64,000 nucleotides of DNA from Blepharisma japonicum. Lineage: Eukaryota > Ciliophora > Heterotrichea > Heterotrichida > Blepharismidae. The notes below the pieces were generated by a model. It did not search any database and was not told where the DNA came from. It worked only from the letters and a program-made list of their open reading frames with translations. This document shows positions 6,257-58,035 of this stretch, in pieces (position 1 is the stretch's first letter; each line of letters begins with the position of its first letter). The DNA is taken from the NCBI GenBank assembly GCA_949751835.1, contig CATKHK010000001.1, forward strand, positions 1 to 64,000, written 5' to 3'. The translations under genes were made by a program, and so were the position numbers.

Positions 6257-7852
6257 TTAGAGAATAAGACTCTCGTAAAATTCTTTAAGAGCACGAATGG
6301 AATCTGCAATTGACTTTCTCTTCTTAGGGTCTTTCGTTTTTTTCAGATCATATTCTAAAATTTTGATGATATTATCAATTTCCTCAGATATATTATAGTG
6401 AGGAGCAACTTTCTTTAGCTGTTGGATAGCAGCCTTTAATTCATTTTTTACTGTTTCTATGGACATTTCCATCTTTTTGATATCATCTTCAAGTGTTTCC
6501 TCTTTAATTCTTAATGTTTCTGGCTTAGCTTTAAGTGAGGTGAACTTATCCTTTACATCTTGTAATACTTCGCTAACGAGCTTTTGCGTTATTTTAGGTA
6601 GTCTCTTCGTACGGAAGTGACTATCAGGCCCACATTTGCAAACTTTGCATTTTAGATCAGCTCCCATACATGAACAATTACCAAAATATGTTCCATTTTT
6701 ATTTTGGGTGCATTCTATGCCACAATATCTATGGCATAAAGAGTTATCATTGGCACAAATAGTATTATAGTAATCTACATCTTCTCATTCTATCTGCTCT
6801 ATTTTTTTGGTTGCCATAAAATCTTTATAAGTTTGGGCATCAGCAAATTGTAATTCTTTATTCGTTTTAATTTCTTCAATTTGTCACCTTAGATCATACA
6901 GAATAAAGAGTTTTGATTTAGCTTCATGTAAGATTTGTTTCACTTTGTCAACTCTTTTTTCCACCTCATTGAAACACTCTACATTAAAAGAGGACATTGA
7001 GCTATTGAATTCTGCTAAGGTATTAATATCCATAAGATTTAATTGGCTTTCTATTTTTTCGAGTTTACTGTTGATATCACTAGTAATGGAGTTTATTTTA
7101 GAATTAAGCAGCCTTGTCTCACCCTCATTCTCTATTTTGAATCTTATTAAATTTTGAAGTTCTTTTAAACTCTCACTGTACTCATTTGCTTTTATAGAAA
7201 TCGAATCCTCAATGTTTGCTACCTTAATCCTAGCCGAATTTATAGTTTTATTATTAGCTTCAATACTGCTTTCTTTATTGGAGAGCATAGCATTAAGAAA
7301 TGTTTGAAATCTCTTATGAACTAAAGATGCAATTGAACTTTCTAAGTTTTTACTGTATATATGAAACAATTTTGCAACATTATACCAATCCTTTTCGGCT
7401 GAGATTATCGATTTTACTTTGTTTACAGCTTCTTCAGGATGTAAAGTCAATAACTCTGAAATTGAGTCTCGGTTTAACTTTAACAATTTTTTGGTTTGGC
7501 AAATTTCTAAAACCAAATTTCCTACATTAGCTGAAAAAATATCCAAATTTCTAGTGTATTGTCTTACATCTTCTTCTAAATTAGCTAGACGCTGATTAAA
7601 GGAATCTATAATTAACTTCTTTAGCTTTCTATACTTTGAATCTTCTTTCATAAGAAATCTAAGAACAGCTTGTTTTGTCTCTTCATTAGGCTCTGCAAAA
7701 ATAGAGTCAATTGTATGATCCCTGCCAGCAATTTTATTTTTAATATGCCTTCCGATGTGCAGTTCACAGAAGAAAGATTCAGGAGAAGTGCATTTGCATG
7801 CATACTCAATTTCATTTTTGCAGTCTGGCTCGAAGCACTTCATTTGATTCAT
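6257..7852 (-). CDS. Coiled-coil protein with N-terminal B-box-like and C-terminal Cys-rich motifs
   Basis: With TGA as Trp (two positions, near 6881 and 6787) two apparent ORFs join into one 531-residue protein. Residues 5-40 contain C-x4-C .. C-x-C .. C-x2-H-x3-H, a B-box-like zinc site (CFEPDCKNEIEYACKC, FFCELHIGRHI). Residues about 60-330 are helical and Lys/Glu-rich with heptad character. Near residues 360-410 comes a Cys/His cluster (CHRYCGIEC .. GNCSCMG .. CKVCKCGPDSHFRTKR), then another helical segment. That cluster resembles the Cys-rich tail that follows some AIG1/dynamin-type GTPase domains in protists, but no GTPase motif is present. Function unknown; a zinc-stabilised scaffold is an inference. 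It is the only clearly intact gene between the first and second kelch copies. Confidence 0.75.
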
Positions 7853-8187: not shown

Positions 8188-8990
8188 ATGCATGCTACCC
8201 AAAGCGGATCAAAAATCTCTGAGTTTTATCCTTTAAATCAAAAAATTAAAGTACTTGAAAAAGAAAATAACCAAATAGTTCAAGAAAATTCTAATCTGAA
8301 GGATAATTTAAAAGAATTAAAAACTGATATTGAGCATGCTAAAGAGAAAAATATTAGTCTCTTAGCTGGAGATCAATCTATAAAATAAAAAATTAAAGAT
8401 CAAACTAGTGAACTTGAAGCAAAAGCAATAGAAAATTAGAGATTAAGAAAAGAACTTAATGATTAAACAATAAACTAGCAGAATAATCATCTAAAAAGTC
8501 AAAACCTTGCAATAAAATTTAAAAACATTCAAAATGATACAAAGCACGCATTACCAATTTAGAGGATTTGACTAAAAATATGAATTATTGCAATCTCAGT
8601 TCAAAAGAAACCTTTTTTAAAAGAGATTATTGAAGATTTAAGCAATGAATTGCTAGCAGAACGTAAAAAAATAAAAACTCTAAAAAACAAAATAGAAATT
8701 ATAAAAGAAAAATTATCGGATTTTGAAGAGATTGAATATGGTCACACTATAAATGGCAGTATAGATAATTTAGCCGAGGCTGTTCATAAAATCTTAAAAA
8801 GAATCATAAGAAAGGATAATGATATTGAGAAAGATGATATAAAAATAAAGGATTTTTCTTGTAAAAATGTCAGGTTCAAAGGCACGCTCACTAAAGAAGA
8901 GGAAAACAAAAAGAGCTTAAACGATTCAGCATTTATTATTTTGCAGGAGTGTCCTTATAATCGTGATAATTTCAACATATTACTTTATAA
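8188..8990 (+). pseudogene. Decayed coiled-coil coding region
   Basis: The frame opens with ATG at 8188 and reads a Lys/Glu/Asn-rich helix (LEKENNQIVQENSNLKDNLK). It is cut by TAA/TAG at about 8386, 8437, 8464 and 8473, then changes frame twice (about 8545-8625), and resumes as ELLAERKKIKTLKNKIEI up to about 8990. Several stops sit where Gln would fit a coiled coil, as expected if CAA/CAG mutated to TAA/TAG. The frame changes argue for decay rather than an alternative code. It runs into the Sec63-like relic without a visible boundary. Confidence 0.55.
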
Positions 8991-8999
8991 AGTACCAGA

Positions 9000-9440
9000 T
9001 TTTGGACGTGGAAACTAAAGAATTACCATTGTCACTTAAAAGGGACGATCAAATACAATTGTCCTTGCGCTATTTGTTTGTAGAAAAGAAGAGTATTTAA
9101 AGCACCTCAGAAAGCGTCTAGGCTCGGAATGCACTTGCTATTGATAATTTTATTCGGGTATGCCATTATGTGACAGCAGTCAATATTAGCAATTCCCCAA
9201 AAGGCGTAAAAGTATTCGATCCTTATGAAATTTTAGAAATCCAAGTGAGCGCTTAAGATGAACAAATTCGTATGGTTTTTAGAAAACTCAGTAAAAAATC
9301 CCACCCCTAATAAAGACCCAGAAAGCAATTGGGTAGCAGGAAAATACATAACAATCACAAAATCTTATGGAACCTTGACAAATGAGTTGGTTAAAGCAAA
9401 TTATGAAAATATGAAAATCCTGATGAGCCTTATTTATTAA
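9000..9440 (+). pseudogene. SEC63: Sec63 pseudogene, 5' part (J domain)
   Basis: Sec63 is the ER membrane J-protein that works with BiP and the Sec61 channel. Here a Cys-rich loop and membrane segment (HCHLKGTIKYNCPCAICL, then LLLIILFGYAIM) are read in one frame. A shift leads to VKVFDPYEILEIQVSA, a TAA, DEQIRMVFRKLSKKSHP, a further shift, and ITITKSYGTLTNELVKANYE with NPDEP. This is the J domain preceding the third lumen-to-cytosol segment of Sec63, including the FDPYEIL start and the K-x-Y/F-RKLS helix. The H-P of the HPD motif survives at a frame break. Stops and at least three shifts mean no product. Continues at about 10183 after an inserted primase relic. Confidence 0.75.
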
Positions 9441-9454
9441 TAGCAGCAAGCTAA

Positions 9455-10182
9455 ATGGACCCACAAACTTTAGAAAACTACTATAGAAATTATTTCCCTT
9501 GCAATACACTTTGCAGATTGCTCAATGCAGGAGTTGAACTTGAAAAACAAGATCCTCATTATGACAAAACTTAGCTTGAAAGTAGAGAATTTTCTTTCAC
9601 TTTGTTAGGAGATATATATTGCCGCCATCAAAGTTTCAGCTCTGCAAATGAATTTAAAAATCAGCTGATTCATGATAAGCAAGAAAAATTCGATATTGAA
9701 GCTGTGTGAACAGTCCTTCCAAACAAAAAGACTCTTAATAAAATCCACTATGAGACTCTGAAAAGAGAATTTGCTATTGATATTCATATGACTGATTACG
9801 GTAAAGTTAGAGCATGCTGCTCTGGCGCTGTAGTTTGCCAACCTTGCTGGAAATTTTTAGTAGTCGCTTACTAATCAATGGATATTGCCCCAAAAGAATC
9901 ATTTGAATACACTGTTAATTTATGGGTATACTCAGGAAGAAGAGGTATCCATTGCAGGGTTTCTCACCCAGTCACAAGGCGTTTAAATGATTTTCGAAGA
10001 AAAGCATTAATAGAATTTCTTAATTTAGATTCAAAACCTTCTCCAGATCTACAAAGAAGTTTTAAGACCTCGATTTGAAGAAATTATTGTCAGAGAATAA
10101 AAATTATTTGCAAATCAAGAAAGACTAAATGAATGTGTCGAAATTATTAACAAAGAGGCAAGTCTCTGTGAAGGAAGTGATG
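9455..10182 (+). pseudogene. PRIM1: DNA primase small subunit pseudogene, inserted in the Sec63 relic
   Basis: The catalytic primase subunit makes RNA primers with DNA polymerase alpha. From ATG at 9455 the reading is MDPQTLENYYRNYFP, REFSFTLLGDIYCRHQSF, FAIDIHMTDYGKVRACCSG, CQPCWKFLVVAY, LWVYSGRRGIHCRVSHP, which follows eukaryotic PRIM1 in order. The metal-binding D-x-D equivalent (DIHMTDY), the CCSG..C..C zinc cluster and the SGRRGIH motif are all visible. In-frame TAG (about 9572) and TAA (about 9872) and a frameshift near 10060 break it. One TGA (about 9707) reads as Trp. It ends near residue 240 of about 420 expected, where Sec63 sequence resumes. The relic starts exactly at its own Met. 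Confidence 0.85.
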
Positions 10183-11515
10183 TGTCTTCTCCAGCAAAAT
10201 GGCAATGTGGCTGCCAATGTTTTTGTAGAAAACAGAAAACCATGCATCAATTTTGTTAGTCTTTTTTGTAATTGTGGCTATAATTTTGCCGGGGGCTTGT
10301 ATTTGTGAATTATGACGTCGAAAAAGGTGAATAAGAATGGGAGTTTTGCAAGATAACATGCCGATGTACTTAAAGCTTATTAAATGAAAACATGAATATC
10401 AAGCAATGCTTATTGATGATTATTATCAGTTCTGAATTCCATAAACTTGCAGTATCAAAATCTGATTCTCTAGAGCTAAAAAAAATTGTTGAGTTTATTC
10501 CAAAAAATCAAAGTCTCAGTCCAAAGATACTAAAAGATTTGCTGTTACTGCTTGCACATATGAATAGAAAAATCTTTCATATAAAGCCCAGATTGAATAT
10601 GATTTGAATGAAAGAAGTAAATATTATAGAAACCACGCTTGATTGGGCTCATATTATTAATTCAGGCCCAAGAACAAAACAACGAGTATTCACTCATTAC
10701 CTTACCAATAGAGATGGCTCAATTAATCACCGCAAGTGCTTTGGCTTTGTGAAAGCAATCTTTTAATGCTCCCACATATAAATAATAGTAATTTAAATTA
10801 TTTTGTAAAAGCAAATAAATGGAAAATTTGTGAAATTGACATCGATATTTATCAAAATCCGAAAAATCACTATCAGAGCAGCAATTTCTGACATAAAAGA
10901 ATTCCTCAATTATTCTCCAAAGCTTAAAGTAGAATATCCAGTATTTATTGATGAAGAAGAAATTGCAGATGGAGATGCTATTACTGTAAAAGTTGTAATC
11001 ACAAGAGAGTAGCTTCAAGAAAACCAATTTTTAAGGCATATCCACGCCCCAAGAATTTCCCTATCAAAAAATGAAAAGTGGAGGCTTCTTATTCCAGAGC
11101 CAAATTTAATAAAGTCCTCTAAAATCGTTTTTCACCAATTAAAGACTATTGAAGACAAAGACTTCAAGGGACAGCAGAGCCCACAAGGCTTTAATATTAC
11201 CCAGGTGAACATTCATGAAAGCTTCACGTTAAATTTGCCCATATTATGGTCTTGACACCTGCGAAAAGCTTAACTTTACAGTGAAAAAGCCTGGAGATAC
11301 CAAAAAAGAAGAGTATAAAGTCCTCCTGATTGCAAAAATATTGAAAAGAATGCTATTTCAAATTGTGATGATTGGTTCGCAGCCTAAAGTAGAAGGTTCA
11401 GAAGAAGGAAATATCCCTGAGCTAGAAGAAATCCCTCAAGGTAAATCCGAAGGTTTCCATATTTCAGCTGATATGGTTTGTGCTATGCATCCAAATTATG
11501 CTGAAAAGCACTAAG
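10183..11515 (+). pseudogene. SEC63: Sec63 pseudogene, 3' part (membrane segment and Brl/Sec63 domain)
   Basis: Reading resumes with MAMWLPMFL, a TAG, then KTENHASILLVFFVIVAIILPG, the membrane helix that follows the J domain in Sec63. Next come a basic ELWRRKRWIRMGVLQ, helical repeats of the Sec63 domain (EFHKLAVSKSDSLELKKIVE, DLLLLLAHMNRK, MAQLITASALALWKQ), and the beta-sandwich end (KLKVEYPVFIDEEEIADGDA, EKWRLLIPEPNL, YGLDTCEKLNFTVKKPGD). The acidic tail ends in TAA at about 11513. At least four frameshifts and several TAA/TAG codons are present. Together with 9000-9440 it covers nearly a whole Sec63, so a full gene was here before the primase piece arrived or before both decayed. Confidence 0.8.
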
Positions 11516-11548: not shown

Positions 11549-13343
11549 AATCAAAACTAGATAATTTATCTAGAAACGAGAAGAGCGGGTTTCATGACTG
11601 ACCTGGCAATTACTATACCCCGACTGACAACGAACAAAGAAACATTTGCTGATAAATGAATAAAAGTATTAGGCTAAATAAAATTGATATATGAGAAAAA
11701 ATAAAAGCATGCTTAAAATTCCAAAATTAGCTAAAGTCGATATAAGTAGCATTTGGATATATTGCTGCATACTTGGATGAGATATATTACAAGTTTGATT
11801 TAAGACAGAGGATAATGATTAAGTTTAAAACAGAATATTTACTAATATTAAACAGTTAATAAAGGCATTTTTTACTCTTAATTTGCACTAATAAAAGACT
11901 ATCTATAAATCTTCTTTAGTTAATATAAATTCGACAGAAAAATTAATGATTTTCTCACAAATTCTTTAGATTAGTATTAAAACAAATTCGCAGTAATATA
12001 TGAAACGCTTTTTTATAATAAATTCCAATTTCTTATACTTTATCAAGCTTAAACTTTATACTTATTAAATATATTAATAATAAATTTTCGTGAATTTATT
12101 TTTATTACTTTATCTTTTAACCTAGCATTCCATACTTTCAATTTTCTTACTGCTTAAATCAAATTTATAGCAATAATAAACGCCTTGATAATCAATTACT
12201 CCTATGAAAATTGCTCCATCATTATATTTTCAAAATGACGATATATTTTGAACTATATCATTTTTCCCAATATTTTGTCAGGTATATTCGTCTAATAGCC
12301 CGCTTTCAAGAATACTTCTTCCTCACTCGAATATATACACTCTGCTATTCCCAGTTGCTATTATTTTATCAGTATATTGGGTTAATAGAGGATTAGGTAC
12401 ACAGGAGTAGCTTTCAACTACTAAATCATATTTATAAATTGCTGTAGCAAGAATTCCACACATTAGGATAGATTCTTTGAAAATACTAATGGCTTGATCA
12501 GAATGAAAAAATCTAGGACAATTTAATTTAGTTCATTTGTTTTGAGCAATATTATATTTTTCAGGAGCCTTACCTCCTCCAAAAACATAAATGCAATTAT
12601 TGTAATAAACAGCTTTTGGATCATATCGAGGGGTTCAAGAACGGAGAGTCCTTTTACATTCAAAGATATTAAGATCAATTATATATACCTCTCCAGAGAT
12701 AGGAGGATAATAACAAAAACAATAAAGTTCTAAGTTAGGGAGTTGAACAAGACCTGTGGAGTAATTTAAAACATGTGGAGTTTTGATGGATTCTTTGGCT
12801 AATTTTTGATTTTTAATATCATAAACTCACATAGAATTTGATTCATCTCTGTTGTCGATATTATAAAGAAACTGAGTGTCTATGTCTTTTTGAGATTCAT
12901 GTGAGTAAGATGAAATCAGCATTTATTTTAATCAATTTTTAATAAAATAATTGGTATGTAAAATTGTCTAATAATTGAATTCTTCATAATAGCTGATTTA
13001 TTACCTCAAGAAATACAGCAAGTTTGTTTGGACTAAAAAGCAATAGCTACCTAATTTTCAATAAAATTAGTTTTTATAATCTTCTCAACATTTCTGAAAA
13101 GTGAAAGATATATGAAGTATATATATTTACTTATATTAAAACAAAAAAAGATTTTATCTTTTAAATTAACAAATTATTTATCCCATTTAAAAGCAAATGC
13201 TTTTTAATTTTCATTTTCAATCGAGTTTAGTATTTGTCAATTCGGTGATGAAACCTACTATGCTCCACTTCACCTAATCTTGATTATACAAAATATAAGA
13301 GATATTGCTGTATATTGGTTTTCATGCTATTACAGAGTGAGTT
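11549..13343 (-). repeat. Kelch-gene tandem repeat unit, copy 2
   Basis: Begins near ATCAAAACTAGATAATTTA, just after the Sec63 relic. It contains a conserved block (GAGAAGAGCG..TTTCATGACTGACC..GGCAAT, then the GACAACGAACAAAG block), the kelch gene and about 420 bases of its upstream flank, and ends near TGCTATTACAGAGTGAGTT. The next unit repeats all of this at an offset of about 1845-1848 bases, separated by about 50 unrelated bases. Confidence 0.8.
12122..12922 (-). CDS. Kelch-like repeat protein, copy 2
   Basis: A 266-residue frame from ATG (12922-12920) to TAG (12122-12124), intact only with TGA as Trp. It shares the core IYVFGGGKAPEKYNIAQN with copy 1. It differs by scattered substitutions, for example SGEVYIIDLN for SGKVYVIDLN and GILATAIYKYDLVVES for GIYDKVIYKYDILVES. 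The differences are substitutions without indels, consistent with a maintained protein. Upstream and downstream flanks are nearly the same as in copy 3, which makes copies 2 and 3 the younger pair. Confidence 0.7.
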
Positions 13344-13396
13344 ATTACATGATAATAATATTTTAACTCTCACTCTCAGAATACATACATTTCGTT

Positions 13397-15184
13397 ATCA
13401 AAACTAGATAATTTACCATAGAAGCGAGAAGAGCGAGTTTCATGACTGACCAGGCAATCATTATGCCTCGATTGACAACGAACAAAGAAGCATCTGCTGA
13501 TAAATGCGATTAGAGTATTAGATTAAATAAAATTGAAATATGAGAAAAAATAAAAGCATGCTGAGAATTCCAAAATTAGCCAAAGTCGATATAAGTAGCA
13601 TTTGGATTCTATTGAATACTTGGATGAGATATATTATAAGTTTGATTTAAGTCAGAGGATAATGATTAAGTTTAAAACAGAATATTTACTAATATTTAAG
13701 AGCTAATAAAGGCATTTTTTACTCTTAATTTGCACTAATAAAAGACTATCTATAAATCTTCATTAATTAATATTAAATTCGACAGAAAAATTATTTATTT
13801 CTCGCAAATTCTTTAGATTAATATTAAAACAAATTCGCAAAAATATATGAACGCTTTTTATAATAAATTTCAATTTCTTATACTTTATCAAGCTTAAACT
13901 TTATACTTATTAAATTTATTAATAATAAATTTTCGTGAATTTATTTTTATTACTTTATCTTTTAACCTAGCATTCCATACTTTCAATTTTCTTACTGCTT
14001 AAATCAAATTTATAGCAATAATAAACGCCTTGATAATCAATTACTCCTATGAAAATTGCTCCATCATTATATTTTCAAAATGACGATATATTTTGAACTA
14101 TATCATTTTTCCCAATATTTTGTCAGGTATATTCGTCTAATAGTCCGCTTTCGAGAGTGTTTCTTCCTCACTCGAATATATACACTCTGCTATTCCCAGT
14201 TGCTATTATTTTATTAGTAGATCAGGTTAATAGAGGATTAGGTATACACGAGTAGCTTTCAACTACTAAATCATATTTATAAATTTCTGTAACAAGAAAG
14301 CCACACATTAGGATAGATTCTTTAAAAATGCTAATGAATTGATAAAAGTGAAGAGATTCAGGACAATTTAATTTAGATCATTTGTTTTGAGCAATATTAT
14401 ATTTTTCAGGAGCCTTACCTCCTCCAAAAACATAAATGCAATTATTGTAATAAACAGCTTTTGGATCATATCGAGGGGTTCAAGAAGGGAGAGTCCTTTT
14501 ACATTCAAAGATATTAAGATCAATTATATATACCTCGACAGAGAAAGGAGGATTATAACAAAAACAAAAAAGTTCTAAGTTAGGGAGTTGAACAAGACCT
14601 GTGGAGTAATTTAAAACATGTGGAGTTTTGATGGATTCTTTGGCTAATTTTTGATTTTTAATATCATAAACTCACATAAAATTTGATTCATCTCTGTTAT
14701 CGATATTATAAAGAAACTGAGTGTCTATGTCTTTTTGAGGTTCATGTGAGTAAGATGAAACCAGCATTTATTTTAATCAATTTTTAATAAAATAATTGGT
14801 ATGCAAAATTGTCTAATAATTGAATTATTCATAATAGCTGATTTATTACTTCAAGAAATACAGCAAATTTGTTTGGACTAAAAAGCAATAGCTACCTAAT
14901 TTTCAATAAAATTAGTTTTTATAATCTTCTCAACATTTTTGAAAAGTGAAAGATATATGAAGTATATATATTTACTTATATTAAAACAAAAAAAGATTTT
15001 ATATTTTAAATTAACAAATTTTTATCCAATAAACAAATGCTTTTTATTTTTCATTTTCAATCGAGTTTAGTATTTGTCAAATCGATGATGAAACCTACTA
15101 TGCTCCACTTCACCTAGTCTTGATTATACAAAATATAAGAGATATTGCTGTATATTGGTTTTCATGCTATTACAGAGTGAGTTC
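13397..15184 (-). repeat. Kelch-gene tandem repeat unit, copy 3
   Basis: Parallel to copy 2 throughout, including the ACTGACC..GGCAATCATT block, the kelch gene and the upstream flank ending near TACAGAGTGAGTT. Divergence between the two units is low and spread over coding and noncoding parts alike. Confidence 0.8.
13967..14767 (-). CDS. Kelch-like repeat protein, copy 3
   Basis: Third 266-residue copy, ATG (14767-14765) to TAG (13967-13969), with TGA as Trp and no breaks. Nearly the same as copy 2; differences cluster in YYPPISGEV against the equivalent region here, and around the residues preceding YKYDLVVES. The common upstream flank contains no recognisable promoter element beyond AT-rich sequence. 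Function as for the other copies: a kelch-propeller-like protein with unknown partner. Confidence 0.7.
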
Positions 15185-15488
15185 TTAAAATTTTTTTCCC
15201 CTAATAACCCATCTGCATTTGCTAATCGGAACCCAAAAAGTTTTCAACAGTTTCACAACAAGAGATTCGCCTTTATATAAAAATCCCTGGTCAAGCAAAA
15301 ATAAAACTCAAGATCCTCCCTTATATATTATAAATAATATTTAGATTTAAGTTAAAGACCGCTATTTATAAATAAATACATTTATACTAAAAAGTAAATA
15401 CCTTATATAGTTTTCTATATTAAATATTTTTACTCGCTTTAAATTCACTTTATCTTTCTACAAATTTATTATAATAAAAATGATTTTT
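15185..15488. other. Spacer upstream of small hypothetical gene
   Basis: AT-rich sequence between the end of the kelch repeat and the next start codon. No coding potential seen. Confidence 0.4.
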
Positions 15489-22849: not shown

Positions 22850-23152
22850 ACTAAAAAATCCATAGGAACAGAAATTTATCTTATTTATCAAGAAGGAAGT
22901 AATAAATTTGCAATAAAAGAATTCGAGAATAAGCTTTATTTAATTATCAAGAAATATTAGAAAATGAATAGATTAATACTTTTAGTAATCCAGCCCAGCA
23001 GCGCTTCTGCATATCAGGAATGCTATGCAAGAAAATAGTAATTGCTTATCTGGAAGATATATGAGGAAAAAACATAGGTGCTATTCATGAAAGTAATGAA
23101 ATGATGACTTTGACTGAAGCATTGGACTATTTTCTATTCTATTAATATGGTC
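22850..23152 (+). pseudogene. Decayed coding region upstream of the tandem module
   Basis: In one frame IGTEIYLIYQEGSNKFAIKE, then in another YQEILENE, TAG, INTFSNPAQQRFCISGMLCK and IGAIHESNEMMTLTEALDYF up to TAA. Sensible composition interrupted by a frame change and stops. Its last part (from about 23090) is repeated at about 25463 as the start of the second module. No family recognised. Confidence 0.35.
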
Positions 23153-23424
23153 ATTCAATATGTATCTCAAACCCAATCTGAGGCTAAGTTATGTTATGAT
23201 TGCATCACAAATTGTGGGTACATTTCTATAAAAGAGTACCAATATGATAATATATGGCTTATTTTTCAGTACAGCTAGGCACTGAAATCCAATACCTGAT
23301 ATCTGGAATTTATTATCTGAGCTAGTAAGTTATTAGAACAATGGAAAAGGTACAGAGGCCTTTTGTCCAATCTTCAAAATCTGTCACTTTTCAAGCAATT
23401 TGTCAAAGCAGAAATGATTGTATC

Positions 23425-23691
23425 CGAATTCACTCTCAAGTGCACTGGAGCCAATGCTAATATTTATTATTTAGCTTAATTGAGTCTTATGATTCTCTCA
23501 GCCCATAATTTAGCTTTATTGAACCTAATGAGCTTTTCAGCTCACATGAAAAATATGGATGCACAAGTAGAGTGATTAATTCAGCGTTTTGGTTAAGACT
23601 AGCACCTTTACCTTCATTTCCTCAATATCAAGTCCATCAAGTGACGATAACAAACTCTAGCAGTAATGAGCTTACCAACATTATTCATTAA
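23425..23691 (+). pseudogene. Relic preceding small gene A (left module)
   Basis: Reads CTGANANIYY, a frame slip, SLIESYDSLSP, a TAA, then FSFIEPNELFSSHEKYGCTS and LAPLPSFPQYQVHQVTITNS up to TAA at 23689. The copy at about 25785-26045 keeps the same slip and the same internal TAA, so both lesions are older than the duplication. Shorter, more decayed relatives lie before the B genes (about 24405-24606 and 26745-26953). Family not recognised. Confidence 0.45.
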
Positions 23692-23762
23692 AGTATTAAC
23701 TTATGATTTTTTGAGCTAAAACTGATATGATTGCGTAATGATTTAATTGCTTAATAATTAAT

Positions 23763-24137
23763 ATGAATATTCAAGCAATTTATGGTCTTTTTGGGCAGAA
23801 AAAAGACAACACTGAAGAAGAAGAAGAAAAAGAAAAAGAAAAAGAAAAGCATAAAAGAAATGAAGAGCAGCACAAGTCTGTGATGGATAAAATTCGACGT
23901 TTAAAAAAATCAAGTACAAGAACACTATCTAATAATGAGATTTGAACGATTTTGGATGATATTTGGAACTCAATCGAATACTCCGTTACACTTGATAAAA
24001 CAAACAAATTAATTGATGACGAACTCCTTCTCTTTTGAAGTTTGAGAAAAGATTATGACTTAAGAGTTGAAATTTATATGAGACAAATATCTGATTCAAG
24101 AGGTTATGACTTATATAAGAAATTGAGAAATTTATAA
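23763..24137 (+). CDS. Small acidic/charged protein, module gene A (left)
   Basis: ATG at 23763 to TAA at 24135, 124 residues with two TGA-Trp. The layout is MNIQAIYGLFGQ, a Glu/Lys repeat (TEEEEEKEKEKEKHKRN), then a helical charged domain with IWNSIEYSVTLDKTNKLIDD and FWSLRKDYDLRVEI. The last motif recurs in all module genes and in a fragment at 42.8 kb, where its Trp is TGG. No known domain. The frame is kept in both A copies although the Glu/Lys run changes length by whole codons, which supports translation. Confidence 0.65.
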
Positions 24138-24676
24138 CTATAAAAATAAGATAAATAAATCAGAAAGCAAAATAAGGGGATCCTCATCTTTATCTTAATT
24201 TGATATTTATTCAAATTGGTAATTTGATTCTAAGAAAATTAGAGAATTATTAAAATTATTTATCCATACATAAGAAACCTTTGATTTAAAATATTGCACT
24301 GCTCAGCTGGTGATCATCTAGGAGTTTTATTTGCTAAATAGTTTTCACATTTTATAAAGTTTGCAAATAGGTTTAATTCGAGCTGTTTTTATATGCTCGC
24401 AAGTGTAATGGAGCAAATACCAATATTTATTATTCGCTTTATAGAACCTTACGACAATGGAAAACGATGATTGCACACGCAAAATAATTAATTCAGTGTT
24501 TTGATTAATGCTACCCACCTATATCTTTGCTTCCTAGACACCAGATCCATATAGTGACGATAATAAAACTCTAGCAATAATTTACTTGCCAGCTTTCTTC
24601 ATTTAAATTATTAACATATTATTTTTGAACTAAAGTGATACTAATTATGCAATGATTCAATTGCTTAATAATTAAT

Positions 24677-24988
24677 ATGAAAATTCAAGCAATTTAGGTT
24701 TTGTTAGAACAGAAAAATAACAACCCTGACGAAGAAAAAGAAAAGCATAAAAGAAATCAAGAGCAACACAATTTTTTGATAGATAAAATTCGATTGCTTA
24801 ATAAATCAAACATAAGATCACTATCTAATAATGAACTTCAAACGACATTCAATGATATTTGGAACTCAATAGAATATTCCGTTACACTTGATAATACAAA
24901 CAAATTGATTGATGACGAAATCTTTTGAAGTTTGAGAAAAGATTATGACTTAAGAATTGATATCTTTGTAAACCAAATATTTGAATAA
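24677..24988 (+). pseudogene. Small-protein gene B (left), broken at codon 7
   Basis: Paralogue of gene A: MKIQAI, then TAG, then VLLEQKNNNPDEEKEKHKRN, DIWNSIEYSVTLDNTNKLID, a TGA-Trp in FWSLRKDYDLRID, and TAA at 24986. Only the early TAG spoils it; no in-frame ATG close downstream is obvious. It may be dead or may use a later start. Confidence 0.6.
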
Positions 24989-25784
24989 AAAGTTCAGAAA
25001 TTAATGAATTTATAGTTATAAAAATAATATAAATCAAAAATATTAATAAAATAGGGGGATCCTGCTTTTATCTAAATTTGATATTATTTAAAATAAAATG
25101 GATTTTTAAAAAATCTTTCAAAATTTTATGTAGATATGTTTTCATATCAGCAAATTAGCAATAAGGTTCAAAGGACTAATACTTGATTATAAATTTTTTT
25201 CAATTATTATTTATTTAAAAAAAATAAAAAATTGAAGTGGATATTGAAATCAAGGATTTGTCATACTATAAAATTTTGACTATTCTTAGACACCGCAGAG
25301 CAAGGTTTTAACAAAAAATAATCTCGGAAATCATTATAAGCAATATGCCAATTAAGCACCTTCAAGTAGTCTCCAGCCTATACAAGTGGGAAAATGCTCC
25401 GCTTGTACCAATTTATATCATACAATATGCTAGCAAACTGGACAATTTCTTGATGATAATGCAATGATGACCTTGACTGAAATATTGGACTATTTTCTAT
25501 TCTATTAATATGGTCTTTCAATTTGTATCTCAAACGCAATTACGAGGATAGTCTATATTATGATTGCATTGCAAATTGCAGGTACATTTCTATAAAAGAT
25601 ACCAATATGATAATATGTAGCTTATTTTTCAGTGCAGCTAGGTACTGAAATCCCATACCTGATATCTGGAATTTATTTATCTGAGCCAGTAAGTTATTAG
25701 AGCAATGGAAAAGGTATAGAGGCCTTTTGTCCCATCTTCAAAGTCAGCCACTTTTCAAGCAGTTTGTCAAAGCAGAAATGATTG

Positions 25785-26045
25785 TATCCAAGTGCACTGG
25801 AGCCAATACTAATATTTATTATTTAGCTTAATTGAGCCTTACGATTCTCTCAGCCCATAATTCAGCTTTATTGAACCTAATGAACTTCCCAGCCCATATG
25901 AAAAATATGGGTGAACAAGTAAAGTGATTAATTCAGTGTTTTGGCTAAGACTAGCACCTTTACCTTCATTTCCTCAATATCAAGTCCATCAAGTAAAAAT
26001 AACAAACTCTAGCAGTAATGAGCTTACCAACATTATTCATTTAAG
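25785..26045 (+). pseudogene. Relic preceding small gene A (right module)
   Basis: Same content as the left relic (TNIYY, slip, SLIEPYDSLSP, TAA, FSFIEPNELPSPYEKYGWTS with a TGA-Trp, and LAPLPSFPQYQVHQVKITNS). The shared lesions indicate it was already broken when the module duplicated. Confidence 0.45.
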
Positions 26046-26113
26046 TATTTACTTATGATTTTTTGAGCTAAAACTGAGATGACTGTTTATGATTTAATTG
26101 CTTAATAATTAAT

Positions 26114-26482
26114 ATGAATATTCAAGCAATTTATGGTTTGTTTGGTCAGAATAAAGACAACACTGAAGAAGAAGAAGAAGAAGAAAAAGAAAAGCATAAA
26201 AGAAATGAAGAGCAGCACAAGTTTGTGATGGATAAAATTCGACTTTTTAAAAAATCAAGTACAAGGACACTATCTAATAATGAGCTTTGAACGATTTTGG
26301 ATGATATTTGGAACTCAATCGAATATTCCGTTACACTTGATAAAACAAACAAATTGATTGATGACGAACTCCTTCTCTTTTGAAGTTTGAGAAAAGATTA
26401 TGATTTAAGAGTTGAAATTTATAAGTATCAAATATCTAAATCAAGAAGCTTGAACTTATATAAGAAAATTAGAAATTTATAA
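26114..26482 (+). CDS. Small acidic/charged protein, module gene A (right)
   Basis: ATG at 26114 to TAA at 26480, 122 residues. Same layout as the left copy: MNIQAIYGLFGQ, an acidic run two codons shorter, IWNSIEYSVTLDKTNKLIDD, FWSLRKDYDLRVEI, end KKIRNL. Two Trp are TGA. Differences from the left copy are substitutions and whole-codon changes only, so both A copies look functional while both B copies are broken. Confidence 0.65.
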
Positions 26483-27024
26483 CTATAAAAATAAGATAAA
26501 TAAATCAGAATGCAAAATAAGGGGATCCTCATCTTTTATCTTAATTTGATATTTATTCAAATTGGCAATTTGATTCCAGCTTAAGAAAATTGGAGAATTA
26601 TTAAAATTATTTAGGCATACATAAGAAACATTTGATTTAAAATATTGCAATGCTTAGCTGGTGATCATCTAGGAGTTTTATTTGCTAAAACAGTTTTCGC
26701 ATTTTATAAAGTTTGCAAATAGGTTTAATTCGAGCTGTTTATATATGTTTGCAAGCGTACTGGAGACAATACCAATATTTATTATTCGCTTTATAGAACC
26801 TTACGGCTATACGGGAAACAGTGATTGCACACGAAAATGATTAATTCAGTTTTGATTAATGTTACCCACCTATATCTTTCACCTTCAACACCAGATCCAT
26901 ATAGTGACGATAATAAAACTCGAGCAGTAGTTTGCTTGCCAACTTTCTTCATTTATGTTATTAACATATTTTTTTGAACTAAAGTGGTACTAATTGTGAA
27001 ATGATTTAATTTTTAATAATTAAT

Positions 27025-27300
27025 ATGAAAATGCAAGCAATTTATGTTTTGTTTGAATAGAAAAATCACAATCTGAAGAAAAGGATAAAAGAAATGAAGA
27101 GCAACACAAGTTTGTGATAGATAAAATTAGATTGTTTAATAAATCAAGCACAAGATCGCTATCTGGTAATGAGCTTTCAACGAGTTTGAATGATATTTAG
27201 AACTCAATAAAATATTGCGTTACACTTGATAATACAAACAAATTGATTGATGACGAAATCCTTTTGAAGTCCGAGATAAGATTATGACTTAAGAGTTGAT
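27025..27300 (+). pseudogene. Small-protein gene B (right), multiply broken
   Basis: Starts MKMQAIYVLFE, then TAG at codon 12, loss of part of the acidic run with a frameshift, a TAG in place of the Trp codon of D-I-W-N-S, and further shifts before the FWSLRKDYDL remnant. The lesions differ from those of the left B copy (its TAG is at codon 7), so the two B genes died separately or the left one is only marginally damaged. Confidence 0.65.
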
Positions 27301-27757
27301 ATCTTTGGAAATTAATGAACCTTATCATTATAAAAATAATATAAATCAAAATATTAATAAAATAGGGGGATCCTGCTTTTATCTAAAATTGATATTATTT
27401 AAAATAAAATGGATTTTTAAAACCTTTCAAAATTTTATGTAGATATTTTTTCATATAAGGATCAAAGGGCTAATATTTGTTATAAATTTGTTTGCAATTA
27501 TTATTTCTAAAACATTAAAAACATGAAGTGGAAATTATGGAGGTCAAGATTTTGTTGTGTTATATAAAATTTTGACTATTCTTAAACATCTCAGAGCAAG
27601 GTTTTAACAACAAATAATCTCGGAAATTATTATAACTAATGTGCCAATTAGGAACTCTCAAGTAGTCTCCAACTTATGCAAGAATGGAAAAATGCTCTGC
27701 TTGTAGCAATTTATATCATATAATATGCTAGCAAACTGGACAATTTCTTGATGATAA

Positions 27758-41013: not shown

Positions 41014-41534
41014 TAATTATTTTCTAATAAAATCCAAAGAAAATGTTATGCATTTTTAGATAAACCAAACAGAAACTGTTTATTATAGGTATTGAGCAAA
41101 GGTAAAATTTTTTAAGGCATGAACTGATATTTATAAATATTATGCCTGCCTTCCATAAATTTTTGAATTATTTTTAAGTTAAAAAACTGGCTAATAAATG
41201 CCAATTATTAAAATATAAATTTTTTATCTTTAAAGCAAGAAAACAAAGGAAAAATTAATCCTTCGCAAAGGAGCAGGAAAATATTTTGATGTTAAGTAAT
41301 GGTTCTAAAATTAAATTAATTAAACTTTAATTTTAAATTGGGTTTTCGGAAATTCTAAATATCAGATTTTAAAAAATAAACTTTTTCTACGATAGATAAA
41401 AAATTTCTCTCAGAGAAATTAGCTTAGAGATTAATGTCTAAAAAAAATTAAATCAATTGTTATCTGTTGCGGTGCTGCTCACATTCAGCATTTGTCCATT
41501 TTTCTAATTAAATATAAAATAATTACTAATAACT
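41014..41534. other. Spacer upstream of the ankyrin-like cluster
   Basis: AT-rich, no gene seen. It separates the divergent arrestin-like and ankyrin-like clusters, so promoters for both strands may lie here. Confidence 0.4.
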
Positions 41535-41880
41535 AAAAGAGGAAATAGTAGAACAATTAAAAGCTGATTTAAGTTTTGTTTATAATGGCGAAACTGCTTT
41601 AACTACGTCAATCATTCACGACTGTTACGAAAGTTTCAAATATCTCATCACCTTATCAAATATCGACATTAACCAAGTCACAAAAACCAAAAGCAGCGCT
41701 ATAATTTGAGCTACAAGGCCTGGGAAAGAAGAATTTTTCGCTGATTTGTGTAGAATTAATGCCAATCTAGACCCAATCGACAAGTATAAAAATAAATCTG
41801 AGCTAACCAGAACTGCTTTAGATTATTGATACACAAACCAAATCATAAAAGTCCAGGTCTTTTTATTCTCTCCTCAAATG
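41535..41880 (+). pseudogene. Ankyrin-like gene fragment, 3' half only (copy a)
   Basis: Matches the second half of the intact gene 3' of it: ADLSFVYNGETALTTSIIHD .. LSNIDINQVTKTKSSAII .. DPIDKYKNKSELTRTALDYW. It lacks the first about 85 codons and any start, and ends where the upstream flank of the next gene begins. Confidence 0.7.
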
Positions 41881-41903
41881 GATATTGAAAATAATTTTTA
41901 CAA

Positions 41904-42542
41904 ATGGGTTCTCGTTGTACCAAAAATCAAACAACAGTATCATCACAAAATCCCTTAAACTTTTCTGAAGAATGGCTCCGAATTGACTATGTATTCAGAT
42001 TTCTCTCCACCAGAGAAGTAAAAATCCTTTTTAAAACTCAAGGCTACACTCCAACTAAAGTCACAAACATCTGGAATGCCGATACTCCAATAATATTTTA
42101 CTGTATCTGCAATTCAAAACTTAAAATATTAAAATGCTTAGTAGAAGAACTAAACGCTGACTTAAGTTTTGTTTACAAAGGAGAAACTGCTTTAACTACA
42201 GCAATCATCAATAACTGTTACGAAAGATTCCAATATCTCATCACCCTACCAAACATCGACATTAACCAAGTCACAAAAACCAAAAGCAGCGCTATAGTCC
42301 ATGCTGCAAAGCCTGGGAAAGAAAAATTCTTCAACGATTTGTGTGAAATTAAAGTCAATCTAGACCCAATCGGCAAGTATAAAAATAAATCTGAGCTATC
42401 CAAAATTGCTGTAGACTATTGATACACAAACCGAGTCATAAAAGTCCGGCTCTTTTTGTTTTGAAAACCATTCCAAAAAGAAATAAACCTCCTTAAAAAC
42501 TTGCCTCAGTCTTTAGTAAGAGAAATTGCAGAATATATTTAA
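41904..42542 (+). CDS. Ankyrin-like protein with N-terminal myristoylation signal, copy 1
   Basis: 212 residues, ATG at 41904 to TAA at 42540, two TGA-Trp near the end. MGSRCTKNQ is a Gly2 acylation site with a Cys. The middle has ankyrin-like helices: DTPIIFYCICNSKLKILKCL, GETALTTAIINNCYERFQYL and KSSAIVHAAKPGKEKFFNDL, each about 33 residues apart. Ankyrin stacks bind proteins; this one is probably tethered to membrane. The end is QSLVREIAEYI. Copy 2 at 43795 differs at few positions. The gene sits in an array with two truncated relatives. Confidence 0.75.
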
Positions 42543-42622
42543 TGAATATTTAAACAAATTTATATCCTGAACCCTGAAAGCTTATTTTCGAGCTCATTTT
42601 TATTATCTTGCAATAAGTTCAG
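42543..42622 (-). repeat. Duplicated scrap of the RCC1-gene 3' end
   Basis: This stretch is nearly identical to 44434-44513, which spans the gap after ankyrin copy 2 and the last codons of the RCC1/coiled-coil gene. On the minus strand it still encodes LLQDNKNELENKLSGFRI, then stops matching. The block containing the ankyrin gene was therefore copied from the 43.8-44.5 kb locus, carrying a piece of the convergent neighbour. Confidence 0.85.
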
Positions 42623-42689
42623 GATAAGAAGATGTTTTTGAGCAAACTAAAGTGCTATTTTCTAAAATTTTCTTTCTCCTTAATTAGGA

Positions 42690-42924
42690 AAAATGCGATT
42701 TTCTTAGAAGTATTTTGGAAAACATATGGGATTCAATTTATATTTCCATAGATATGTATAAAGAAAGTAAATGGATAGAAGAGGAACTGGACTCATTCTG
42801 GATGATAAGGAAGGATTATGACTTAAGGGTGGATCATCAAGTTGAACGGATTTCGTATGAGAGAACTCCTGAACTTTTGATGAAATGGAAAAATATAAAT
42901 TTGGACGATTTGATGAAAGTGTAA
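42690..42924 (+). pseudogene. Fragment related to the 23-27 kb small-protein family
   Basis: Reads CDFLRSILENIWDSIYISID, then MYKESKWIEEELDSF and WMIRKDYDLRVDHQVERI, ending MKV and TAA at about 42922. There is no ATG start in frame. IWDSI .. ELDSFWMIRKDYDLRVD aligns with IWNSI .. ELLLFWSLRKDYDLRVE of the small-protein genes. Its Trp is TGG where theirs is TGA. It could be a truncated copy or an exon whose start I cannot find. Confidence 0.5.
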
Positions 42925-42969
42925 GGTTTTTAAATATTTTAAAAACTATTGGCTCGTTTTTCTGATTAA

Positions 42970-43400
42970 AGCTTAATAACTAAAGAAGAAATAGTAGAAG
43001 AATTAAAGATGATTTAAGTTTTTTTATAATGGCGAAACTGCTTTAGCTACGTCAATCATCCACGACTGTTACGAGAGTTTCAAATATCTCATCGCCTTAT
43101 CAAATATCGATATTAACCAAGTCATAAAAAACAAAAGCAGCGCTATAATTTGAGCTACAAGGCCTGGGAAGAAGAATTCTTGCTGATTTGTGTAGAATTA
43201 ATGCCAATCTAGACCCAATCGACAAGTACAAAAATAAATCTGAGCTAACCAGAACTGATTTAGATTATTGATACACAAACCAAATCATAAAAGTCCGGCT
43301 CTTTTTATTTTGGGAGCTATTACAAAAAGAAATAAACCTCCTTAAAATTTTGCATCAGTCTTTAGTAAGAGAAATTGCTGAATATATTTAATGAATATTT
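42970..43400 (+). pseudogene. Ankyrin-like gene fragment, 3' half only (copy b)
   Basis: Second truncated relative: NGETALATSIIHDCYESFKY .. KSSAII .. DPIDKYKNKSELTRTDLDYW and the closing LHQSLVREIAEYI. It shares distinctive changes with fragment a (AIIW-A-T-R-P; NANLDPIDKY), so a and b derive from one ancestor. Frame breaks occur near 43010-43020 and 43170. Confidence 0.7.
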
Positions 43401-43794
43401 AAACAAGATGACTGTGAGTTTCATATCAACTCGCGAAAGGCATACCTAAGATATTCAGTTAAATCAATTATTATCTAATAAGTTGTTAATATCCAGCAAA
43501 AATCTATATTTCTAATTAAATATAAAATTTAAAATTTTATTTATTGATTTTTTTATATTAAAATCAAAGAGTCTTTAATTATATTTATTTTGAAATTTAA
43601 AATATTGATCTTATTTAGATTATATTAAAAATTTTCATATCATTAAAGTTGAAGTCATGCGCAGCTAAGTTTTATTAATCAATTTTGCAAGTATATATCC
43701 TTTATTATCAATATGTAAAATAATCTCAATTAACCCAAAAATATTCACATTTTCTATTCTCTCCTGAAATGGATATTAAAAATAATTTTTACAA
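43401..43794. other. Spacer upstream of ankyrin-like copy 2
   Basis: AT-rich; the last about 60 bases (from TTCTCTCCTGAAATGGATATT) repeat the flank just before copy 1 and are probably promoter-proximal sequence kept in both copies. Confidence 0.5.
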
Positions 43795-44433
43795 ATGGGT
43801 TCTCGTTTTACCAAAAATCAAACAACAGTGTCATCACAAAATCCCTTAAGCTTTCCTGAAGAATGGCTCCGAATTGACTATGTATTCAGATGTCTCTCCA
43901 CCAGAGAAGTGGGAATCCTTTTTAAACATCAAGGCTACACTCCAACTGAAGTCACAAACATCGGGAATGTCGATACTCCAATAATATTTTACTGTATCTG
44001 CAATTCAAGACTTAAAATATTAAAATGCTTAGTAGAAGAACTAAACGCTGACTTAAGTTTTGTTTACAAAGGAGAAACTGCTTTAACTACAGCAATCATC
44101 AATAACTGTTACGAAAGATTCAAATATCTCATCACCCTACCAAACATCGACATTAACCAAGTTACAAAAACCAAAAGCAGTGCTATAGTCCATGCTGCAA
44201 AGCCTGGGAAAGAAAAATTCTTCAACGATTTGTGTGAAATTAAAGTCAATCTAGACCCAATCGGCAAGTATAAAAATAAATCTGAGCTATCCAAAATTGC
44301 TGTGGACTTTTGATACACAAACCGAGTCATAAAAGTCCGGCTCTTTTTGTTTTGGAAGCCATTACAAAAAGAAATAAACCTCCTTAAAAACTTGCCTCAG
44401 TCTTTAGTAAGAGAAATTGCAGAATATATTTAA
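43795..44433 (+). CDS. Ankyrin-like protein with N-terminal myristoylation signal, copy 2
   Basis: 212 residues to TAA at 44431, two TGA-Trp. Begins MGSRFTKNQ (the Cys of copy 1 is Phe here, so only myristoylation is predicted). Otherwise it nearly matches copy 1, including DTPIIFYCICNSRLKILKCL and KSSAIVHAAKPGKEKF. The stop codon lies 17 bases from the stop of the convergent RCC1 gene. This locus is the likely source of the duplicated block at 41.9-42.6 kb. Confidence 0.75.
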
Positions 44434-44450
44434 TAAATATTTAAACAAAT

Positions 44451-46976
44451 TTATATCCTGAACCCTGAAAGCTTATTTTCGAGCTCATTTTTATTGTCTT
44501 GCAATAAGTTCAGCCTAAGCCTTATTTCGGCTAAGCTGTTTTTTAGCACCCCTCCTCCTTCTCTAAATGTAGGAGGAGTCTGATGCTCTTGCAGCTGGGC
44601 ATGCTTCATTTGTAGCCTTGGCGACAAATAATTCTCACATTTTGTTTTGTGGACTGGAGAAACTGTTACAGCAGGCTCCATAGAATTATTGAAAATTTTC
44701 CTATCAATTTCCATTGAAATATTAGGACTTTCTAAAGGCAAAGTTGTATCTGGGCTTGGCCCATTGTAGCGGTCTGACATTCTTGCTCCCATAGGGGTGC
44801 TTAATAAATTAAGCGTCCTTTCTTTATACTCCTTTGCCCTTTCTCTTAAATCTTTTTCTAGATTGGTAAATAGCTGCTTATTTTTAGATTCAGCTTCATT
44901 TAAATCCATTTTGAGCTTGCAGTTCTCTTTTTCTAAATTTTGGATTTTTTGCTTGAATTCTATTATAGTTTTGTCTTGGCTTGCAATTTTATTTTGGTAG
45001 GTTTCGCATTGGTCTGTTAATAAAGTCATGGATTTTTCAATTTGGTCACATCTTTTGGCAAGGTCTTCTGTGTCAGCTGCATTCTCTGCTGGTTTTGCAT
45101 TTTTTCTTACCTCACTTCTAAGCAGCTCAGCTAGTTTTTCTTTTTGCTTAATGGTCTCTTCAAGGGTGATTTGGTCGTTTTCTTTATTTGACAAAAGCTT
45201 GCGGATTTCTTGGTCTTTTAGTTTTAACTCATAAGTGTATTTTTCTTCAAGTTTTTGAAGCTCAGCTTCAAGCTTAACCCTAGCCCGAATTTCTTGTTCT
45301 CTTAAATTTTCAATATCTTTAAGCCTGTTTTCTAGCTTTTCAATAATTTTAGCGTCAGAGTTTCTTTTTGCCTCTGCGCTCTGTTTAATTTCTTTTGCTT
45401 CTTTTTCTTTTTCTTCTGCTATGATTTTACATCTTTGGATTTCCTTGTTATGGATCTCGTTTTGATATTTACTGGTGTCATTTACCCTCTGTAAAGCCAT
45501 CCTCATGTCGCTTAGTTCTCCTTCAAGCTCTCTTATTTTGACACCACATTGGTGTCTTTCAGTAGATTCCTGCTCTTTTTTCTTGTGCTCATATTCTTCT
45601 TTTTTAATAAAAGAATTTTCTAATTCTTCATATTTTTTAGCTTCTCTTTTAATGTTTCTGGATTTTGTGGCATCTGTGTGAGAATCGTCAATAATGATGT
45701 TTTCTTTGGCCTTGTTATAGACTTTTGAAGCTGAGGATCGGGCTGATTCAAGCTTTGAGGTATATTTTGAGGGAGTTTTTGGTCCAGAAATTTTAGGAGG
45801 TGATATATATCTTTTGACAGATTGAGCCCTATCCTGCCCTTTTGTTACCAAAATAGGACTTTTTCTAGGCGATTTTACCTGTTCTCCATATATATCCTGT
45901 CCTAGTGCTAAGGCAAAATTTCCTCCACAAGACACCAAGCTAACTTGTCTTCCTGCAAGAATATTCAGTCTATTAATAGTAACTCTCCTTTCATAGTCCC
46001 CAATACCTAATTCTCCATTTGAGTTACTTCCCCATGTCCAAATATTTCCAGCCTTATCTAAAACAGCCCCAAAAGTCCCACCTAAGGTTAAATCTTTTAT
46101 TTCTGGTAGCTCATTTAGCAACTTAGGGACCAGACACTCTCCAAAAATGCCAGTCCCCCACACATAAAGTTCTCCAGTCTCAGAAATTGCTGCTGAATGG
46201 TAGCCACAGGCGACTTTTGCAATTCTTTCCCTATCCAGCCCATTGACCCTTATAGGTATACTTGAACTTTTTTTGTTCCCAATCCCAAGCTGTCCAAATG
46301 CATTACCTCCCATAGCCAGTACAAACCCAGACACAGTGACCACAACACTGTGATAAAGCCCGCAGGCTACTTGTTTTGGGGCATCAATCAAATTTATAAA
46401 AGCCGGAAAAAGCTCATTTTCTCTTTTCCCAGTCCCCAGCTGGCCTGAATCTCCAGCTCCCCACATAAAAAGTGATTTATTCCTGTTATTTTCACAAATA
46501 ATCCCTGTATGTCTGCTTCCACAGCTTACTTGTAAAGCTTTAAATCCTTCATTTAAAGCGACTTCTTCCGGACTCCACCTACATTGTGTATCTCCTAGTC
46601 CTAAAGCTCCAAAATCCCCTGATCCCCAGGCAAAGACTAATCCACCTTCTACAACAGCAGCAGAGTGCCCACCTCCGCATGATACACTTATAGTCCTATA
46701 CCCTGATAATTTATCAACTAAACATGGAGAAGAGCTCTGAGTGGTGGTTTTATCGCCAATTCCGAGTCTCCCATTTAAATTGCTGCCCATTGTATATAAA
46801 TAGCCTGTTCTTGATACAAAAGCAGCGTGTTCTTCTCCACATGATACTTGTGATATTAAGACATTAAATGTACAAAAGCGAGGAGAGCAATAAGTTTTGC
46901 CAGTTGTGTGTGAGCCTAAGCCAAGCTGTCCAGAGTTGTCATTTCCCCAACTAAAAACTTCAGTGTATCCTTCCAT
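44451..46976 (-). CDS. RCC1-repeat protein with C-terminal coiled coil
   Basis: 841 residues. Residues 1 to about 370 hold seven RCC1 blades, each with W-G-x2-x2-G-Q-L-G-x-G and a later S-C-G-x2-H-(S/T) turn (EVFSWGNDNSGQLGLGS, VSCGGGHSAAVV, FMWGAGDSGQLGTG, WTWGSNSNGELGIGD). A Ser/Lys-rich linker follows, then a coiled coil at about 430-690 and a tail with SP/TP sites. RCC1-plus-coil proteins occur in ciliary and NEK-kinase contexts. It need not be the Ran exchange factor, since RCC1 itself lacks the long coil. No introns or TGA codons disturb the frame. Confidence 0.88.
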   Translation of the reverse strand: MEGYTEVFSWGNDNSGQLGLGSHTTGKTYCSPRFCTFNVLISQVSCGEEHAAFVSRTGYLYTMGSNLNGRLGIGDKTTTQSSSPCLVDKLSGYRTISVSCGGGHSAAVVEGGLVFAWGSGDFGALGLGDTQCRWSPEEVALNEGFKALQVSCGSRHTGIICENNRNKSLFMWGAGDSGQLGTGKRENELFPAFINLIDAPKQVACGLYHSVVVTVSGFVLAMGGNAFGQLGIGNKKSSSIPIRVNGLDRERIAKVACGYHSAAISETGELYVWGTGIFGECLVPKLLNELPEIKDLTLGGTFGAVLDKAGNIWTWGSNSNGELGIGDYERRVTINRLNILAGRQVSLVSCGGNFALALGQDIYGEQVKSPRKSPILVTKGQDRAQSVKRYISPPKISGPKTPSKYTSKLESARSSASKVYNKAKENIIIDDSHTDATKSRNIKREAKKYEELENSFIKKEEYEHKKKEQESTERHQCGVKIRELEGELSDMRMALQRVNDTSKYQNEIHNKEIQRCKIIAEEKEKEAKEIKQSAEAKRNSDAKIIEKLENRLKDIENLREQEIRARVKLEAELQKLEEKYTYELKLKDQEIRKLLSNKENDQITLEETIKQKEKLAELLRSEVRKNAKPAENAADTEDLAKRCDQIEKSMTLLTDQCETYQNKIASQDKTIIEFKQKIQNLEKENCKLKMDLNEAESKNKQLFTNLEKDLRERAKEYKERTLNLLSTPMGARMSDRYNGPSPDTTLPLESPNISMEIDRKIFNNSMEPAVTVSPVHKTKCENYLSPRLQMKHAQLQEHQTPPTFREGGGVLKNSLAEIRLRLNLLQDNKNELENKLSGFRI

Positions 46977-57109: not shown

Positions 57110-57257
57110 TAATATTATCCTAATCATATCCTGTATCTATAAAAAACTCATAAAAATTCAACTATTTTATTGCTTTTACTCAAACCCCAATCGATCATTT
57201 TTTAAATCAATTTCATTCTTACACTCTATAAATAATAGCATTTTTCCATATTTGTAA

Positions 57258-57994: not shown

Positions 57995-58035
57995 TTCTTA
58001 TGGATAATTCCAGAATTCATTTGAATTTTACAGCG

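Follow-up and report, generated by a model that had tools for sequence, protein, structure and literature searches.

How did part of a primase small-subunit gene (PRIM1) come to lie inside a broken SEC63 gene in the ciliate Blepharisma japonicum, and did the piece travel there as RNA or as DNA? The locus (positions 9,000–11,515) lies in a window comprising the first 64 kb of a 975-kb contig, in a genome assembly of 45.2 Mb and 224 contigs. The initial annotation had read it as a two-gene nesting produced by a single event at one place; the genome instead contains a repeat, old and amplified, that is composed of six or more gene pieces. The pseudogene mosaic is real; it came about once, was amplified, and is common to all alignable copies. 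On balance, the PRIM1 piece probably entered it a single time, by LINE-type, internally primed reverse transcription of an mRNA, and the block was then duplicated.

The nested relic, its parents and its neighbours

Intact counterparts of both genes, which had been expected elsewhere in the genome, are indeed present: an uninterrupted SEC63 ORF of 642 aa on contig C83, with DnaJ and Sec63 domains and without insert, and an uninterrupted PRIM1 ORF of 380 aa on C91, with a primase domain. The window matches these parents at 83–87% identity over 568, 724 and 1,275 bases, which leaves no room for a chance origin, and alignment with both bears out the nesting of one relic within the other and the broken state of both. 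An intact parental locus carrying the same nesting was also looked for and not found; the C83 SEC63 gene runs continuously across the site. TGA occurs in frame inside both reading frames. There are three PRIM1 genes in the genome (C91, C6 and C61), each with a primase domain, and those on C6 and C61 are 70–73% alike to the C91 gene in DNA.

The features are collected in Table 1. Window positions 10,178–11,452 align to the SEC63 parent from base 1326 and the 5' part of the relic reaches base 1336, so that 11 parental bases are used twice. This 11-bp SEC63 duplication flanks the insert at the two places (around 9,440 and 10,183) where a target-site duplication had been anticipated; in the window copy its sides agree with each other at 9 of 11 positions and with the parent at 10 and 9 of 11. 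The insert does not begin exactly at the primase Met, as was first thought, but 24–30 nt upstream of the ATG (9,455–9,457), in the 5' leader. The earlier idea that the insert was delimited by the transcript or coding start is thereby half retained: its 5' limit probably lies near the transcript start, and is not at the start codon. Likewise, the roughly 240 primase codons reported before SEC63 resumes are there as codons 1–239, but a further stretch close to the 3' end, about 10 codons long and beyond a gap of about 280 bp, had been overlooked. The insert stops short of the gene's end, near codon 343 of 380, in a direct joint to SEC63 at which 4 nt (TGAT) are common to the PRIM1 donor and the SEC63 target. 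No A-tail, the classical feature of a processed pseudogene, is found at this 3' end, the joint reading straight into SEC63.

Table 1. Features of the nested relic and its flanks, in window coordinates
Feature	Position	Strand	Remarks
Open 531-aa ORF (TGA = Trp), left neighbour of the relic	6,257–7,852	-	part 7,016–7,852 in the multi-copy block
Relic of a coiled-coil protein gene	8,219–8,863	+	82% identical to a segment of an open 925-aa ORF (C34); label read from sequence
SEC63 relic, 5' part including J domain	8,864–9,431	+	C83 parent matched as far as base 1336
Left copy of the 11-bp target-site duplication	9,421–9,431	+	TGATGAGCCTT; parent TGATGGGCCTT
PRIM1 5' leader	9,431–9,454	+	alignment with C91 parent
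PRIM1 relic, codons 1–239	9,455–10,153	+	alignment with C91 parent
PRIM1 relic, piece of about codons 333–343	10,154–10,181	+	about 280 bp missing before it; last letters TGAT, common with SEC63
Right copy of the target-site duplication	10,178–10,188	+	TGATGTGTCTT
SEC63 relic, 3' part (Brl domain)	10,189–11,452	+	match ends 29 nt before the parental stop codon
Aminopeptidase relic	11,453–11,515	+	cut at 11,515 in the window; longer in other copies

On the left, the coiled-coil and SEC63 relics of the window meet at AAAATG, a joint that looks like the product of a secondary deletion. Three other copies keep a leader and start about 17 nt before the SEC63 ATG, and on these grounds the reading that SEC63 starts, within the repeat, precisely at its start codon was rejected. 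Read along the plus strand, the full mosaic consists of the coiled-coil piece, SEC63 with PRIM1 inside, the 3' part of an aminopeptidase gene (which we take, from its protein sequence, to be of the aspartyl aminopeptidase type), an antisense piece of a dipeptidase gene (presumably of the M20 type, again named from protein sequence), a piece of a gene related to one on C46 within the latter, the dipeptidase again, and the 3' end of a further ORF. The aminopeptidase piece is sense and starts at about codon 320; the coiled-coil piece is also sense and also starts inside its gene, and a resumption of the coiled-coil gene at the right end of the mosaic was looked for and not seen. The SEC63–aminopeptidase and aminopeptidase–dipeptidase joints share 3–4 nt. 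The C108 copy is a rearranged one: its coiled-coil and aminopeptidase relics are joined at close range, and the distal portion of the mosaic is inverted.

The window copy ends at 11,515 and gives way to another repeat, which carries a Kelch gene. Copies of that repeat, both tandem and dispersed (11,550–13,347, 13,397–15,187 and 1,531–2,500), are 88–94% identical, and each holds a 266-aa ORF on the minus strand (TGA = Trp; 1,581–2,381, 12,122–12,922 and 13,967–14,767), the one tested (12,125–12,922) having a Kelch motif. The putatively B-box-like 531-aa ORF on the left matched no Pfam family at E 0.001 and looks recombinant: from 7,016 it belongs to the multi-copy block, and 5,461–7,017 matches a locus on C63 at 80%. 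Other direct duplications in the window lie at 23,094–27,757, 41,527–44,519 and 55,870–60,351, with best pairs of 0.3–2.4 kb at 85–97% identity.

Single formation, spread and neutral decay

A search of 9,000–11,515 against its own genome returned 43 matches, 36 of which are copies of the repeat, the window included, on 26 contigs; copies other than the window are 86–92% identical to it. The remaining seven are two pieces of the SEC63 parent (C83), the PRIM1 parent (C91), two PRIM1 paralogs (C6 and C61, 69–70%), the aminopeptidase parent (C123) and its paralog (C25). Annotators should be warned that 17 of the 20 primase matches in the genome are relics of this repeat.

End distances are known for 23 of the 26 contigs (C37, C118 and C143 lie outside the count), and 20 of these carry the repeat within 15 kb of an end, a closeness that is trivial for four of them (C199, C205, C219 and C222), which are shorter than 18 kb. 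The exceptions are C138 (about 16 kb), C97 (about 29 kb) and C52 (about 49 kb). The C90 copy lies less than 5 kb from a telomere repeat; CCCTAACA repeats stand at two of nine contig ends inspected (the C6 end and the C90 start), and the same telomere repeat, together with UGA = Trp, is reported for Blepharisma stoltei in the accessible part of PMC9942806. The position of the repeat is likely subtelomeric, although repeats also break assemblies. As to the neighbouring pieces, about 1.2 kb separates the aminopeptidase parent (C123:104,200–107,800) from the end of its contig, and the C95 copy runs out in a tail that is 87.5% identical to sequence directly upstream of that gene; together these suggest DNA exchange between contig ends.

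To analyse the joints, 16 copies were aligned with both parents. The left PRIM1/SEC63 joint is of the same kind in all 14 alignable copies, and the right joint is kept in 14 of 15, the SEC63 side having been lost from C205 through a later deletion; small gaps occur in the right duplication of C49, C77 and C125. Among the copies compared, none has SEC63 on both sides without the insert, an arrangement seen only in the C83 parent. As the alignable copies have these joints in common, the PRIM1 piece was nested in SEC63 a single time, before amplification. An assembly artefact might be suspected from the number of copies that lie close to contig ends or on short contigs, the places at which repeats interrupt assemblies; yet the left joint recurs in 14 copies from different contigs, each with substitutions of its own, which makes misassembly very unlikely. 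Several host-gene pieces in one many-copy repeat would also suit a gene-capturing DNA element of the Pack-MULE or Helitron type that acquired the pieces and mobilised the block. This is improbable: the limits of the shared sequence vary from copy to copy, and the duplications flank inner pieces rather than the block.

All 16 copies are frameshifted, with 3–12 frameshifting indels in the PRIM1 part and 8–32 in the SEC63 part (counted as gaps in BLAST alignments). Copies are 87–93% alike, and the PRIM1 insert is 88–91% identical to its parent in the 16 copies. Differences between copies at codon positions 1, 2 and 3 amount to 9.7, 8.9 and 9.2% in PRIM1 and 9.7, 9.0 and 9.7% in SEC63, the near equality that is expected without coding constraint. 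Between the majority sequence and the parents it is position 3 that differs most (5.4, 2.5 and 12.3% for PRIM1; 6.5, 5.7 and 11.5% for SEC63), a pattern expected of parents that remained under selection. The block thus decays neutrally, with no function seen, and forms a datable, many-copy record of host-gene pieces entering and spreading in a ciliate genome. As to which relic is older, majority and parent differ at positions 1 and 2 in 64 of 1,049 cases for SEC63 and 19 of 486 for PRIM1 (p = 0.09), at position 2 only in 30 of 522 and 6 of 244 (p = 0.045), and the shared frameshifts (10 in SEC63, 3 in PRIM1) go with length; these counts appear to set no firm order.

Entry of the PRIM1 piece

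We infer an RNA intermediate for the PRIM1 piece, a LINE as the agent and duplication as the route of spread. A LINE-type endonuclease/reverse transcriptase would have nicked the SEC63 relic; the nicked strand would have primed inside a PRIM1 mRNA through the 4-nt TGAT match; synthesis would have run to the 5' end of the mRNA, 24–30 nt before the ATG; and closure of the staggered cut would have left the 11-bp duplication and no A-tail. A host-gene piece (the C46-related one) would have entered the neighbouring dipeptidase fragment in the same way, after which the block would have spread by duplication, mostly near contig ends, and decayed. Target-primed reverse transcription with internal priming leads one to expect just these traits, namely a 3' match to the target, a duplication and a missing A-tail.

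The second insert carries the same signature as PRIM1: leader start, cut-off 3' end and duplication. It begins 11 nt upstream of its ATG and breaks off within the coding region, inside the open frame of its relative; the dipeptidase letters CTTGTGCTCCAG stand on both sides (a duplication of 9–12 bp), and CTT (3 nt) at the right joint is common to donor and target. Its left joint is present in 12 and its right joint in 5 of the 15 sequences tried (14 contigs). Its parent was not found, the best match being about 70% identical and perhaps not the donor. Both duplication-flanked inserts begin in the donor leader, and taken with the SEC63 start (about -17, three copies) these starts point to a boundary set by the 5' end of an mRNA. 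With breakpoints uniform over 1–2 kb, the chance that two of two inserts start within 30 nt upstream of an ATG is 2e-4 to 9e-4, and that at least three of five donors do so 3e-5 to 3e-4; both figures are approximate and would be higher given open chromatin at promoters. A start in the leader is not general across the mosaic, since the aminopeptidase and coiled-coil pieces start inside genes, and DNA joining also took part in it, as the 3–4-nt joints and the antisense dipeptidase piece attest.

These last features favour a different course, in which the SEC63 relic suffered a staggered double-strand break; fill-in of its ends would have produced the 11-bp duplication, a genomic fragment of PRIM1 would have been joined in through microhomology, and amplification of the block would have followed. 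Several joints with 3–6 shared nt, the antisense dipeptidase piece, the gap inside PRIM1 and the gene-internal starts of the aminopeptidase and coiled-coil pieces all fit such DNA capture, and the place of the aminopeptidase parent so near its contig end makes DNA exchange plausible there. The intron comparison suggested in the initial annotation gives no RNA signature either: no intron was recognised in the copied donor parts, which read through as open frames, and comparison with six donor stretches yielded no 15- or 16-nt loss common to at least 60% of copies, the only shared loss of at least 6 nt being one of 9 nt in PRIM1. This test is blind to an in-frame 15-nt intron kept in donor and copies, which would favour DNA. 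A gap of 13–16 columns near the end of the C46-related piece in five copies, seen against a relative only about 70% alike, was not counted as an intron, as its letters do not begin with GT. What weighs against DNA capture, which we regard as a strong if less likely competitor, is that both duplication-flanked inserts start in a leader, stop in a coding region and have duplications of 9–12 bp; moreover, the accessible part of PMC5110952 lists target-site duplication under LINE-mediated insertions, with break repair as the other class.

LINE genes are present: the genome has 32 RVT_1 matches, and at least one open 936-aa ORF combines a reverse transcriptase with a sub-cutoff endonuclease match (22.4 bits against a cut-off of 27.4). 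No L1-like cut site is apparent at the target, and the LINE genes of B. stoltei are described as negligibly expressed (PMC9942856, in its accessible part), which we count against the RNA route. Between the two mechanisms named at the outset, retrocopying or capture by DNA repair, the leader starts, the duplications and the 3' match make the former the better explanation, short of proof.

Relation to known retrocopies and chromosome-end blocks

The closest parallel is with the tailless retropseudogenes of therian mammals, defined in the accessible part of PMC5322556 as near-complete at the 5' end and truncated at the 3' end, with duplications of 8–35 nt at least 70% identical. The RNA 5' end is represented here by the distance to the ATG (24–30 nt for PRIM1, 11 nt for the C46-related gene); in the survey's other features the two inserts agree: both are truncated by at least 10 nt at the 3' end without an A-tail, and their duplications (11 bp and 9–12 bp) fall within the range of length and identity. 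TGAT and CTT supply the complementarity to the target at the 3' end, a short and weak match that is also expected of end joining. Source identity, for which the survey asks more than 69%, is 88–91% for PRIM1 and about 70% for the C46-related gene, measured on its best relative, maybe not the donor. The therian cases, as presented there, thus share the 3' truncation, the duplications, the 3' target match and the lack of an A-tail, and probably also the nature of an RNA copy near-complete at its 5' end; here, by contrast, the host is a ciliate, the donors are protein-coding, the insert is nested in a pseudogene and amplified in a repeat, and there is no A-rich priming site.

Chimeric retrogenes formed by LINE template switching in Magnaporthe (PMC2104539, accessible part) likewise fuse several transcripts directly, a tripartite one having 14-bp direct repeats. 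They differ from the present case, in which two separate nested insertions have their own duplications and template switching is no more than a possibility for the other joints. Within the genus, what is accessible of the B. stoltei accounts (PMC9942806, PMC9942856) describes reverse transcriptase genes of this kind, UGA = Trp and the telomere repeat CCCTAACA, and contains no mention of host-gene retrocopies or chromosome-end mosaics. Judged by titles and abstract openings, in a literature of limited coverage, no report of retropseudogenes in ciliates was found.

A wider reading, which we offer tentatively and would not yet call probable, is that ciliate LINEs copy ordinary mRNAs from internal 3–4-nt matches as far as the cap and so produce tailless, 5'-complete pseudogenes, which the chromosome ends of heterotrichs collect, nest and amplify. 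If so, internal priming would be an old property of APE-type LINEs, reaching beyond therian L1. Were the RNA route alone correct, tailless retroposition would extend far outside mammals, and LINE machinery would have acted on the host mRNAs of a heterotrich. In other eukaryotes, duplicated chromosome-end blocks are made of one block, pseudogenes included, that recurs on many ends; the mosaic described here differs from them in the content and the origin of its pieces.
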